NCBI GenBank assembly: GCA_002347095.1
Contig: DDWZ01000011.1
Span: forward strand, 65,780 to 129,779
Length of the DNA: 64,000 nt
Direction: 5' to 3'
From: Desulfobulbaceae bacterium UBA2273
GTDB lineage: Bacteria; Desulfobacterota; Desulfobulbia; Desulfobulbales; Desulfurivibrionaceae
Positions 28,073 to 55,199 of this stretch are shown in pieces (within the stretch, counting starts at the first letter, position 1; every line of letters starts with the position of its first letter). A model generated the notes under the pieces. It was not told the origin of the DNA, searched no databases, and was given only the letters and a program-made list of their open reading frames with translations. The position numbers and the translations under genes are program-made.

Positions 28073-28148
28073 TGGTGGGCCGTCGGGGGCTCGAACCCCA
28101 AACCTACTGATTAAGAGTCAGTTGCTCTACCAGTTGAGCTAACGGCCC
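28073..28148 (-). tRNA. tRNA-Lys (anticodon CTT)
   Basis: A 76-nt cloverleaf on the minus strand, GGGCCGTTAGCTCAACTGGT onward, with acceptor stem GGGCCGT/ACGGCCC, D-arm GCTC/GAGC, anticodon loop CTCTTAA (anticodon CTT), T-arm with TTCGAGC and encoded CCA. All arms pair as expected. Confidence 0.97.
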
Positions 28149-28360: not shown

Positions 28361-28440
28361 TGGTTTTTTCCGGCGTGGGCCGGAAGCATGGCAGAGCAAA
28401 GGGGAACTATCCCGCTCGGAGCCGGAAAGCGAAAAAACCA
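28361..28440 (+). promoter_or_regulatory. Candidate structured 5' leader RNA
   Basis: A perfect 10-bp outer stem TGGTTTTTTC/GAAAAAACCA encloses CCGGC-GTGG-GCCGG and a GAGC-aaa-GGGGA-acta-TCCC-GCTC hairpin, giving a compact multi-branch fold. It begins shortly after a TATAGT hexamer at 28341 and ends 130 nt before the carboxynorspermidine synthase start. It matches no riboswitch consensus that I recognise. Confidence 0.4.
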
Positions 28441-28446
28441 CGGAAC

Positions 28447-28552
28447 GTAACTGCTCAGCAGTGCCCCAGATGCGCGAAAGAGGCCTGCGAAGTGTGCTAT
28501 TGCACATGAGCAGGTCGATGACAAAGCAGATGAGGCGCTGCTGAACAGTTAC
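28447..28552 (+). repeat. Two-copy structured element, copy A
   Basis: A 106-nt element. The outer stem GTAACTG.TCAGCAG.GCC pairs with its complement next to CTGAACAGTTAC (19 positions, one mismatch, one wobble). The inner core CAGATGCGCG...AAAGCAGATG contains stem GGCCTGC/GCAGGTC and hairpin GTGTGC-TATT-GCACAT. The core recurs in reverse complement at 54170-54277 with an unrelated but self-complementary outer stem. The 3' strand of the outer stem ends just before the GGAAAGGAG ribosome binding site of the next gene. Confidence 0.75.
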
Positions 28553-28570: not shown

Positions 28571-29761
28571 ATGAGCAAGGTGTTGATAATCGGGGCCGGC
28601 GGGGTCGGCAGTGTGGTGGTTCATAAGTGCGCGCAGGTACCGGAGGTTTTTTCGGAGATCTGCCTTGCCAGCCGGACCCTTTCCCGCTGCGAAAATATCC
28701 AAAAATCCGTCAAGGAGCGGACCGGACGCGATATCGAGATCGCCCGGGTCGATGCCGACAATGTTGCCGAGACCGTGGCCCTGATCAAAAGGGTGCAGCC
28801 CAAGCTGGTGCTCAATCTGGCCCTGCCCTACCAGGATCTGCACATCATGGATGCCTGCCTGGAAACCGGGGTCGATTACCTGGATACCGCCAACTACGAG
28901 CCGCCGGACGAGGCGAAATTTTGCTACAAATGGCAGTGGGACTACCAGTCCCGCTTCAAGGAAAAGGGGCTTATGGCCCTGCTGGGCAGCGGCTTTGATC
29001 CCGGGGTCACCAATGTCTATTGCGCCCACGCGGCCAAGCACCATTTCGACGAAATCCACTATGTGGACATCCTCGACGCCAATGCCGGGGACCACGGCCA
29101 CCCCTTTGCCACCAACTTCAACCCCGAGATCAATATCCGCGAGGTCACGGCCAAGGGCAAGTACTGGGAGAACGGCACCTGGGTCGAGACCGCGCCGCTT
29201 TCCATCAAGCAGAGCTACGATTTTCCGGTGCTCGGCCCCAAGAACGCCTATCTCATGTACCACGAGGAGCTGGAATCCCTGGCCAAGAATATCAAGGGGC
29301 TCAAGCGCATTCGGTTCTGGATGACCTTTTCCGACAACTATCTCAAGCATCTTGAGGTGCTGCAGAACGTGGGCATGACCGGGATCGAGCCGGTCATGTT
29401 CGAGGGGCGCGAGATCATCCCCCTGCAGTTTTTAAAGGCGCTGCTGCCCGACCCCGCCTCCCTGGGGCCGCGGACCAAGGGGAAAACCTGCATCGGCTGC
29501 GAGGTGGAGGGGCTCAAGGATGGCAAGCCCAAGAAGATGTTCATCTATAATGTTTGCGACCATGAGGAGTGCTACCGCGAGGTGGGCTCCCAGGCCATCT
29601 CCTACACCACCGGGGTGCCGGCCATGATCGGGGCGATGATGATGCTCACCGGCAAATGGCGGGGCGCAGGGGTCTTCAACATGGAGGAGCTGGACCCCGA
29701 TCCCTTCATGGAGAAGCTCAATATCCACGGGTTGCCGTGGGTGGAAAAGGTGCTGGCCTAG
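28571..29761 (+). CDS. Carboxynorspermidine synthase (saccharopine dehydrogenase family)
   Basis: A 396-residue dehydrogenase with an N-terminal Rossmann motif IIGAGGVGSVVVHKCA and the saccharopine-dehydrogenase fold; the segment VDYLDTANYEPPDEAKF is typical of CANSDH. It would reductively condense aspartate beta-semialdehyde with a diamine (diaminopropane or putrescine) to carboxy(nor)spermidine. The pairing with a carboxynorspermidine decarboxylase two genes downstream supports this over a lysine-pathway role. The start has AAAGGAG 7 nt upstream, directly after structured element A, so control through the leader is possible. Confidence 0.9.
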   Translation: MSKVLIIGAGGVGSVVVHKCAQVPEVFSEICLASRTLSRCENIQKSVKERTGRDIEIARVDADNVAETVALIKRVQPKLVLNLALPYQDLHIMDACLETGVDYLDTANYEPPDEAKFCYKWQWDYQSRFKEKGLMALLGSGFDPGVTNVYCAHAAKHHFDEIHYVDILDANAGDHGHPFATNFNPEINIREVTAKGKYWENGTWVETAPLSIKQSYDFPVLGPKNAYLMYHEELESLAKNIKGLKRIRFWMTFSDNYLKHLEVLQNVGMTGIEPVMFEGREIIPLQFLKALLPDPASLGPRTKGKTCIGCEVEGLKDGKPKKMFIYNVCDHEECYREVGSQAISYTTGVPAMIGAMMMLTGKWRGAGVFNMEELDPDPFMEKLNIHGLPWVEKVLA

Positions 29762-53350: not shown

Positions 53351-54169
53351 ATGTCCGAACTGAAAAATCCCCTGGAGATCTATGCGGCCCTGGCCAAGTC
53401 AAACTGCGGCCAGTGCGGGGTTCCTTCATGTATGGCCTTTGCCGCCTCGGTGCTCCAAGGGCAAAAGCAATTGGCTGCGTGTCCGTATCTGGACCCGGCG
53501 GTCGTCACCCAGTTGGGCCAGAGGATCGTCCGGCGCCGCTCCCTGGAAGATGACCACCAGCAGGCCATCCAGGAGCTGCGGCGGCAGGTGGCTCTTCTTG
53601 ATTTTTCTTCTTTGGCGCCACGGCTCGGGGCGCGGCTGGTGGAGGGCAATCTGGCCATCAACTGCCTGGGCAAGGATTTTTGCATCACCCCTTCCGGGGA
53701 GATGATCTCCGACTGCCATCTCAACCACTGGATCTATGTGCCTCTGCTCTACTATGTGATCCTCTGCAAGGGCACAGAGCCGCAGGGCGAGTGGGTTCCC
53801 TACGCCACCTTGCCCGGGGCGGCCGAATGGAGCCAGTATTTCAGCCACCGCTGCGAAGAGCCTCTGCGCCATTTGGCCGATGCCCACCGCGACCTGATTT
53901 TTGAAATGCTCCATCTGTTTGGGGCAAAACCCGTTGTCCTGTCCGGCGGCGCGGATCACTCCCTCCTCATCCTGCCCCTGCCCAAGGTGCCTTTTTTGAT
54001 CAACTACTGGGAGCCGGAAGAGGGGTTTGCCTCGAAATTGAACATACTGCTCGACCGCTCGGCCGGGGACAATATCAATGCCCAATCCATCAATCTGCTC
54101 GCCCGGGGCATCATCGAGATGTTCCGCCAGCTCATCCTGAGGCACAGCCGCGACGGCAAGCTTTTCTGA
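53351..54169 (+). CDS. DUF3786 protein with N-terminal [4Fe-4S] domain
   Basis: A 272-residue protein. The N-terminal cluster domain has CGQCGVPSCMAFAASVLQGQKQLAAC (CxxCxxxxC plus a later Cys, as in the CO-dehydrogenase/corrinoid-protein Fe-S domain). It is followed by DUF3786 (HLNHWIYVPLLYYVI, GADHSLLILPLPKVPFLINYWEPEEGF). DUF3786 proteins are common in anaerobes and often sit near corrinoid or electron-transfer genes; their function is unknown. GGAGAATG precedes the ATG. It follows the rnf terminator, and the copy-B repeat begins directly after its stop codon. Confidence 0.85.
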   Translation: MSELKNPLEIYAALAKSNCGQCGVPSCMAFAASVLQGQKQLAACPYLDPAVVTQLGQRIVRRRSLEDDHQQAIQELRRQVALLDFSSLAPRLGARLVEGNLAINCLGKDFCITPSGEMISDCHLNHWIYVPLLYYVILCKGTEPQGEWVPYATLPGAAEWSQYFSHRCEEPLRHLADAHRDLIFEMLHLFGAKPVVLSGGADHSLLILPLPKVPFLINYWEPEEGFASKLNILLDRSAGDNINAQSINLLARGIIEMFRQLILRHSRDGKLF

Positions 54170-54277
54170 GTAAACGGCCATCGGGCACCGCATCTGCTTT
54201 GTCATCGGCCTGCTCGTGTGCGATAGCACACTTCGCAGACCTCTTCCGCGCATCTGCACCACCCGATGGCCGTTTAC
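54170..54277 (-). repeat. Two-copy structured element, copy B
   Basis: 108 nt; read on the minus strand it has the same core as the element at 28447-28552 (CAGATGCGCG...AAGAGG.CTGCGAAGTGTGCTAT.GCACA.GAGCAGG.CGATGACAAAGCAGATG with 4 differences). The outer stem GTAAACGGCCATCGGG/CCCGATGGCCGTTTAC is entirely different from copy A yet perfectly paired over 16 bp. It abuts the DUF3786 stop codon and precedes the tRNA-synthetase-like gene. Confidence 0.75.
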
Positions 54278-54332
54278 GGGGGGGGGCAGTAATCAGTTCG
54301 TTTTAGCTCCTCTTTCGGTCCGGAGAATGAAC

Positions 54333-55199
54333 ATGACGATCCGTTCCCGCATTGCACCGACCCCCAGCGGCCTGCTCCATCTTGGCAACGCGGTAAATTT
54401 TATTCTCACCTGGCTGATGGTGCGCAAGGCAGGCGGAACGCTACGCTTGCGCATCGATGATGCCGATTGCCTTCGCGCCAAGCCGGAATATCTTGAGGAT
54501 ATCTTCCGTCAGCTCGATTGGCTCAAAATCACCTGGGATGAGGGGCCGACGGGCCCGGACGACTTTCGCTCCCGGTTTTCCCAGCAGCTTAGGCAGGAGC
54601 GGTATCGGAGCTTTCTGGCCGAGCTGGGGCGGTTGGGGCATCTCTATCCCTGCAACTGCTCGCGCAGCACGATCAGGCAACTCGCGCCGGATGGGGTGTA
54701 TCCTGGTTTCTGCCGGGACCGCGCCGGAGCGTTTACGGCAGGGGAGGCGCAACGGGTGCGGGTGCCGGAGGGGAGCGTGTTTCGGGTGGAAGGGCAGGAG
54801 GTCGCGCTCTGCAACACGATGGGGGATTTTGTTCTCTGGCGGAAAGAGGACCTGCCTGCTTACCAATTGGTCAGCCTGGTCGATGATCTGGATGACCGGA
54901 TCAATCTCATTGTCCGCGGCCAGGACTTATTGCCTTCCACTGCGGCCCAGCTTTTTCTTGCCGGGTTGCATGGGAATAATTTTTTCGCGGAAACAACCTT
55001 TCTCCATCATCCCCTGGTGCTGGGTGAAGACGGCAGGAAGCTCTCCAAGTCGGACAACGCTTTGTCCCTGGCAGCCCTGCGGGAGAAAAAGCTTTCCCCG
55101 GTTCCAGTGTATCAGGAGGTGGCACGGCAGGTGGGGATTGAGCCGGATGGGATCGTTACCCTTGAGGATTTGCTTCTCAGGTTTAGGGAAATTTCTTGA
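54333..55199 (+). CDS. gluQ: Glutamyl-Q tRNA(Asp) synthetase-like protein
   Basis: A 288-residue class I synthetase catalytic domain without an anticodon-binding domain. The HIGH-equivalent is RIAPTPSGLLHLGNAVNF, the KMSKS-equivalent is GRKLSKSDNA, and a C-x-C...C zinc motif (CNCSRSTIRQ...YPGFC) matches the GluQ family, which attaches glutamate to queuosine in tRNA-Asp. ATG 54333 is chosen over 54327 because GGAG lies 7 nt from it. If tRNA-Asp lacks queuosine in this organism, another substrate is possible. Confidence 0.88.
   Translation: MTIRSRIAPTPSGLLHLGNAVNFILTWLMVRKAGGTLRLRIDDADCLRAKPEYLEDIFRQLDWLKITWDEGPTGPDDFRSRFSQQLRQERYRSFLAELGRLGHLYPCNCSRSTIRQLAPDGVYPGFCRDRAGAFTAGEAQRVRVPEGSVFRVEGQEVALCNTMGDFVLWRKEDLPAYQLVSLVDDLDDRINLIVRGQDLLPSTAAQLFLAGLHGNNFFAETTFLHHPLVLGEDGRKLSKSDNALSLAALREKKLSPVPVYQEVARQVGIEPDGIVTLEDLLLRFREIS

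Follow-up and report, generated by a model that had tools for sequence, protein, structure and literature searches.

A MITE-like family with probable IS66-type ends and a conserved folded core in Desulfobulbales

The element and the closest described systems

MITEs are usually regarded as the decayed ends of insertion sequences. As outlined in PMC11946415, the hallmark of IS66 is a pair of 20–30 bp ends starting with GTAAGCG, together with 8-bp repeats. Correia/NEMIS, ERIC, RUP and CIR are outlined in PMC2229807 and PMC10969869 as elements of 100–170 bp with many intergenic copies, no transposase gene and a strong stem-loop. GTAG REPs are palindromic and present in high copy number, and their termini often provide the stop codons of flanking ORFs, according to the summary in PMC3733652.

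The element described here has GTAA ends and 8-bp duplications in common with IS66 and its derived MITEs, and its left end equals that of an intact IS66 (locus L364, see below) over 16 letters. It differs in having no transposase gene and in possessing an internal hairpin of its own, which repeats the right end and holds a conserved core and which is absent from all 16 IS66 loci tested. It shares the listed features of Correia/NEMIS, ERIC, RUP and CIR, but has conserved loops under several unrelated palindromes and one end that lies tight at stop codons, features that the summaries in PMC2229807 and PMC10969869 do not mention for those families. Like GTAG REPs, it is palindromic, abundant and often a source of stop codons for flanking ORFs, but it has GTAA ends, 8-bp duplications and no link to Y1 genes. 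No published description of the element was found in the open-licence PMC literature (titles and abstract openings; MITEs, palindromic repeats and structured RNAs of Desulfobulbales/Deltaproteobacteria). In line with the earlier note on this DNA, which called the element unnamed, no Rfam family overlaps it (the window at gathering score, and further loci at permissive thresholds: 11 at E ≤ 10 and 9 at E ≤ 5). The sole Rfam match in the window at gathering score is a tRNA gene at 28076–28148 on the − strand.

The window, which is the whole stretch of 64,000 nucleotides that was analysed, contains two copies. Both lie at the coordinates and on the strands that the earlier note had given (copy A, 28447–28552, +; copy B, 54170–54277, −). 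These extents describe the hairpin part correctly, but the mobile unit is longer and covers 28403–28552 in copy A and 54170–54299 in copy B. The features of the two loci are as follows.

28403..28552, + strand: whole mobile unit of copy A, 150 bp, consisting of left end, linker, hairpin and right end
28403..28418, + strand: left terminal arm of copy A
28447..28465, + strand: proximal arm of copy A, an inverted copy of the right end and the 5′ side of the outer stem
28467..28532, + strand: conserved 66-nt core of copy A, with internal loops and apical hairpin
28534..28552, + strand: right end of copy A, the 3′ side of the outer stem, ending GTTAC
28571..29761, + strand: carboxynorspermidine synthase-like gene beside copy A, with saccharopine dehydrogenase domains (PF16653 and PF03435 over cut-off; NCBIfam carboxynorspermidine synthase 434 bits, under the cut-off of 800)
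53351..54169, + strand: gene with FeS and DUF3786 domains; its TGA stop codon directly adjoins the right end of copy B
54170..54299, − strand: whole mobile unit of copy B, 130 bp, beginning directly after the stop codon of 53351..54169
54191..54256, − strand: conserved 66-nt core of copy B
54287..54299, − strand: left terminal arm of copy B, GAACTGATTACTG (by eye; missed by the automatic left-arm scan)
54324..55199, + strand: GluQRS-like gene flanking copy B on the side away from 53351..54169, from a putative start codon (TIGR03838, 4.1e-61; 207 bits, under the cut-off of 276.7)

The outer stems read GTAA...TTAC, differ between copies A and B and are self-complementary within each, as described before. 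The shared core of 66 nt also stands, but it differs at five positions and not at four (28467–28532 against 54191–54256, own count). The left end of copy A is GTAACTATCCAGCTTG with 3 mismatches (C19:94182, corresponding to window position 28403), and it starts with GGAA instead of GTAA. The left extension measures 44 nt in copy A (from 28403) and 22 nt in copy B (to 54299), and in both copies a second left arm, which has diverged, stands at its start. The flanks of copy A (AGCAAAGG / AAGGAAAG) show no clear target duplication, and those of copy B (GCTAAAAC / TCAGAAAA) show no duplication.

The element seemed to have two copies because the view was limited to the window. A covariance model made from 21 copies, which was calibrated briefly and gives rough E-values, lists at least 84 non-overlapping places in this genome at E ≤ 1 (best 150 of 2179 candidates scored), and copies A and B are the only listed ones within the window. 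When the genome was searched at the DNA level, the best 40 of 94 candidates were scored and all 40 are copies. The outer stem of copy A is not unique either, since the 20 best-matching places (copy A included) are 87–100% identical over most of the 106 bp. The earlier observation is partly confirmed.

The earlier note had proposed a search with such a model, and at E ≤ 0.01 it yields matches in 52 of the 58 genomes of the order (this genome included) and in 26 of 30 genera, with up to at least 66 matches per genome; six of the 58 genomes have no match at this threshold. In an even draw of 198 genomes from the phylum, nine match at E ≤ 1e-6, three of them within the order, and five same-order genomes of the draw give no match at that threshold. 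Among the matches listed, records with the exact core are MAGs that include Desulfurivibrio sp., Desulfobulbaceae bacterium, Desulfobia sp. and Ca. Desulfatifera sulfidica. The exact core pattern found no match in viral contigs.

Mobility and the nature of the ends

We examined 195 copies, a few of which are the same locus seen twice or orthologous loci, for target duplications. An 8-bp duplication (at least 7 of 8) combined with a GTAA-like left start was found for 44 of the 195 copies and for 2 of 962 control positions; the other 151 copies failed the test. A second, diverged left arm is located about 41–50 nt upstream of the hairpin in about half of the copies. Clean empty sites with 8-bp duplications were found (AGATATAT, GTTTTTTG, TTTTTCTC, GAGGCTAA and TCCAGATC/TCCAAATC), and most of the 56 pairings that were aligned gave no clean boundary. 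The family has two properties of MITEs, namely inverted-repeat ends with target duplications (copies A and B themselves show no clear duplication) and many copies with polymorphic insertion. Of the options raised in the earlier note, a mobile structured element is the one borne out by the duplications and empty sites in the family. One remnant in the genome of the window, L399 (G000 C29:8652), has kept the left extension and has its hairpin shrunk to GTAACTAGTTAC, as if deleted.

At the site of copy A, the element is absent from all 11 congeners in which the neighbouring gene was found. By eye, the same spacer contains a separate copy further upstream and in the opposite orientation in G011 and a left-end remnant in G012, indicating that it takes insertions repeatedly. 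Copy B was compared across nine other congeners; it is found in the same place in seven, is absent from one (G008), in which the two flanking genes overlap, and is not comparable in one (G004). Its stems change between the seven congeners yet stay paired, and the arms at this locus swap between congeners (CCATCGGG/CCCGATGG against CCACATGG/CCCTGTGG).

A GTAA start and an 8-bp duplication are both found in the family, and this combination points to IS66. An intact single-gene IS66 of 1729 bp with a perfect 8-bp duplication is present in another genome of the same order (G048, L364:1343–3071), and we take it to be of the ISBst12-like type. Its ends read GTAACTATCCAGCTTG.. and GTAACTATCCAGCTC.., and its transposase comprises 475 aa (PF03050, 5.7e-47; NCBIfam IS66, 3.4e-86). 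The 16-letter end of this IS66 occurs exactly at two places in the genome of the window and is identical to the left end of L096, L102 and L278. Three further IS66 loci (L359, L375 and L376) also have ends of the GTAA type, each with a perfect 8-bp duplication.

IS66 transposases occur in 18 of the 58 genomes of the order and in none of 17 same-genus genomes, some of which are 75–90% complete (PF03050 at E ≤ 1e-5; L364 enzyme at E ≤ 1e-4). In the genome of the window, a search with the end pattern gave 31 end-like sites, compared with 2 for the reversed pattern. In eight regions of this genome with end-like sites away from known copies, neither a hairpin nor a long element bounded by a fitting right end and a duplication was seen, although L399 is the remnant described above that has lost its hairpin.

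We consider it probable that the element belongs to a MITE-like family with IS66-type ends which is served by a transposase in trans and whose fold is itself selected for the element. An IS66-type (DDE) transposase supplied in trans would cut at the GTAA...TTAC ends; since none was found in the genome or the genus, this enzyme would be lost, transient or missed owing to incomplete genomes. In the hairpin body, the conserved core stands between the right end and an inverted repeat of that end. The known part of this arrangement is a MITE with IS66-type ends. The unusual parts are a conserved-loop fold with a strand preference, which is kept in orthologs and common to different ends, and a right end that is strictly tied to stop codons.

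The element might instead be a REP/REPIN-like repeat that a RAYT (Y1) transposase mobilizes as folded single-stranded DNA. A fold on one strand and a palindrome would agree with this, as would the GTAA head, which resembles the GTAG head that the summary in PMC3733652 gives for REPs. Y1 genes are present in 52 of 58 genomes, and this genome has two. The element is found in only 3 of 40 Y1-gene stretches (164 kb), for which its density in this genome predicts about 4, and the one Y1 region of this genome that was examined (L225) contains none. Its association with Y1 genes is not above chance, and Y1/RAYT was rejected as a partner. The 8-bp duplications of the family also speak against a REP, as REPs have, to our knowledge, no target duplication, and we regard this reading as very unlikely.

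The fold, its strand and the conserved core

On their stated strands, copies A and B fold with −61.2 and −71.4 kcal/mol, respectively (z −8.92 and −10.90), compared with z −7.47 and −7.51 on the other strand; for each copy and strand, none of 200 shuffles folded as well. In an alignment of 21 sequences, 98.0% of cells pair (17–41% when slid), and 11 pairs show two-sided change, compared with a mean of 3.5 in shuffles, none of 500 of which was as high. These counts of two-sided change, like those of strand bias given below, were made over copies related by descent and are uncorrected. They support the earlier claim of a structure under constraint with compensatory change, which is seen also at orthologous loci. 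In the stems of 36 orthologous copy pairs (110-nt copies on both sides, with copy B or its G003 ortholog in 11 of the 36), two-sided changes kept pairing in 49 cases and broke it in 5. The earlier note had named a transposon with no covariation as the finding that would speak against its interpretation; the transposon-like part applies to the element, whereas covariation is present.

The core strand out-folds its complement in 77 of 78 copies. Here the model that assigned the 'sense' strand had itself been made from that strand, which the core sequence also defines. Over 99 copies of exactly 110 nt (45 of the 84 in this genome and 54 others), G.T exceeds A.C by 434 to 55, and by 121 to 44 when five near-fixed wobble pairs are left out. 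G.T is in excess both in copies whose core strand runs antisense to the neighbours (G.T:A.C of 81:8 for −E− and 47:8 for +E−) and in those where it runs sense (49:4 for +E+); for the four −E+ copies the ratio is 11:7, or 2:4 without the near-fixed pairs. The strand preference therefore looks like a feature of the element itself and not of the mRNA around it. The selected entity would be a folded single strand, of either RNA or DNA, with a benefit for the element and not for the gene beside it, and part of the pairing pattern may come from gene conversion between copies. This raises the question whether selection on a transposon can act on a non-coding fold as its unit.

The same pattern might be explained by plain MITE decay together with gene conversion. 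In that case the fold would be functionless, conversion would keep the arms alike and the strand bias would originate from a few active source copies. The copies do share descent, the arm swaps at the copy B locus could stem from conversion with other copies, and palindromes are described as usual in MITEs in the summary of PMC10969869. However, the one-sided changes in the 36 orthologous pairs favour G.T over A.C by 65 to 20 (with 42 other broken pairs), and in 10 families that do not belong to the order the core loops are retained although the outer palindromes differ. We regard decay and conversion as a possible but doubtful explanation.

The wider distribution of the core was obtained with the pattern AGATGCNNGGMRR...ACAMMGCAGAT, which matches 18 of 395 genomes of the phylum, namely this genome and 17 others that fall into the 10 families mentioned above; among the matches listed, the reversed control gave none. 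The strict pattern has 26 places in this genome and none in 15 other same-order genomes of the draw, negatives that mean little because several of the missed genomes carry the element by the covariance model. At the 26 of 30 phylum loci that were examined, the outer palindromes around the core are of several types: GTAA...TTAC, GCTCGCAAG...TTGCGAGC and a third type characterized by CTCAAAAA...TTTTT; two or three loci fit none of them. The phylum-wide pattern is the 'conserved core, swapped outer stem' of the earlier note on a wider scale, with the non-GTAA types being putatively mobile. Copies A and B, with their differing outer stems, represent two types of end that enclose a common core.

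Among the copies of this genome, the apical hairpin and small extra hairpins vary and the two core strands are constant. Extra small hairpin modules are located at fixed points of the element (GTGTCAATTGTCGGCAGCAGTGCCGACC; GCTAAGCGAGC..GCGAGACTGC; GCCGCTTCGCTGCTGC; e.g., L134, L136, L140, L142, L148, L151 and L153). In L340, L346 and L349, all from genome G085, a common sequence continues past the hairpin on the right, indicating that in this end type the hairpin lies within a longer repeated unit.

One may go further and regard the core as the lasting entity, that is, a folded single strand bound by a putative factor that repeatedly takes new transposon ends, with GTAA ends in this order and in some other families and different terminal palindromes in the rest of the phylum. 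It would be kept because the fold aids spread or softens the cost of insertion, e.g., if it directs the right end towards the stop codons of genes. We put this forward tentatively and consider it rather improbable.

Placement at stop codons and the neighbouring genes

Placement relative to stop codons was counted for 78 of the 84 copies of this genome and for 101 others, with gene calls (here and for the empty sites) from a home-made codon-usage ORF finder. In this genome, a gene points at the right end in 53 of the 78 copies, and in all 53 its stop codon is no more than 8 nt from that end; in 28 of the 53 this stop codon is formed by the TAA within the terminal GTAA (or a variant of it). In other genomes, the stop codon is located at −4 to +6 nt of the right end in 58 of 69 cases and further off in 11. 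The supply of stop codons is not new, since GTAG REPs are known to do so, and it is the tight one-sided placement that stands out.

When empty sites were joined, which removes the element's own stop codon, 19 of 37 insertions lie within 12 nt of a native stop codon, compared with 11% of 2160 intergenic controls. The 37 sites were kept from 44 after repeated sites and short flanks had been dropped, and two of them are orthologs of one insertion. In 15 of the 19 cases the right end faces the gene and in 4 the left end does. On the opposite strand the right end spells GTAA and may thereby often give a TAA stop, so that insertions at gene 3′ ends would persist. How a DDE-type element comes to sit at gene 3′ ends, by targeting or by survival, is a question raised by these data.

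The placement could also indicate a resident 3′-end element of the host, with a hairpin that is kept for stabilizing or insulating mRNA ends at stop codons and with mobility being secondary. The distances to opposing stop codons given above, in this genome as well as elsewhere, are in line with such a role, as is the retention of copy B in seven congeners with changing but paired stems, and PMC2229807 provides, in summary, a precedent for MITE transcripts acting on mRNA. Nevertheless, the mRNA of the neighbouring gene would there bear the complement of the core strand, which is the poorer folder in nearly every copy, and because the empty-site insertions were already near native stop codons, placement need not mean a later benefit. 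A host 3′-end element is thus unlikely in our view, and we retain the MITE-like family with IS66-type ends as the preferred reading.

Copy A is located 18 nt upstream of the start codon of the carboxynorspermidine synthase-like gene in sense orientation, and this position, together with the strong fold, had led to the suggestion in the earlier note of a riboswitch-like leader. Such a cis-regulatory RNA for the downstream gene would be expected to precede the members of a consistent gene set in sense orientation. At the right end, 53 of the 78 copies of this genome have an antisense gene and 24 a sense gene, and the copies adjoin many genes; judged by this orientation, the leader is not supported. 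Furthermore, the 11 congeners that lack copy A at its site keep the gene, and the element has no Rfam match. A riboswitch or leader is very unlikely in our view, and the earlier interpretation is partly supported, with its mobile option retained. Tens of unannotated insertions per genome are open to misreading as regulatory RNAs, as nearly happened with copy A.

Two other repeats were seen by eye around copy A. A palindrome, CCGGCGTGGGCCGG, is located behind a T run just ahead of copy A at window positions 28365–28384, and a similar stretch is present in L173, which does not contain the element. In two congeners (L172 and L177), a different repeat of about 100 bp, AGGGGCCGTT...GGCCCC.., occupies the insertion spacer of copy A upstream of carboxynorspermidine synthase.
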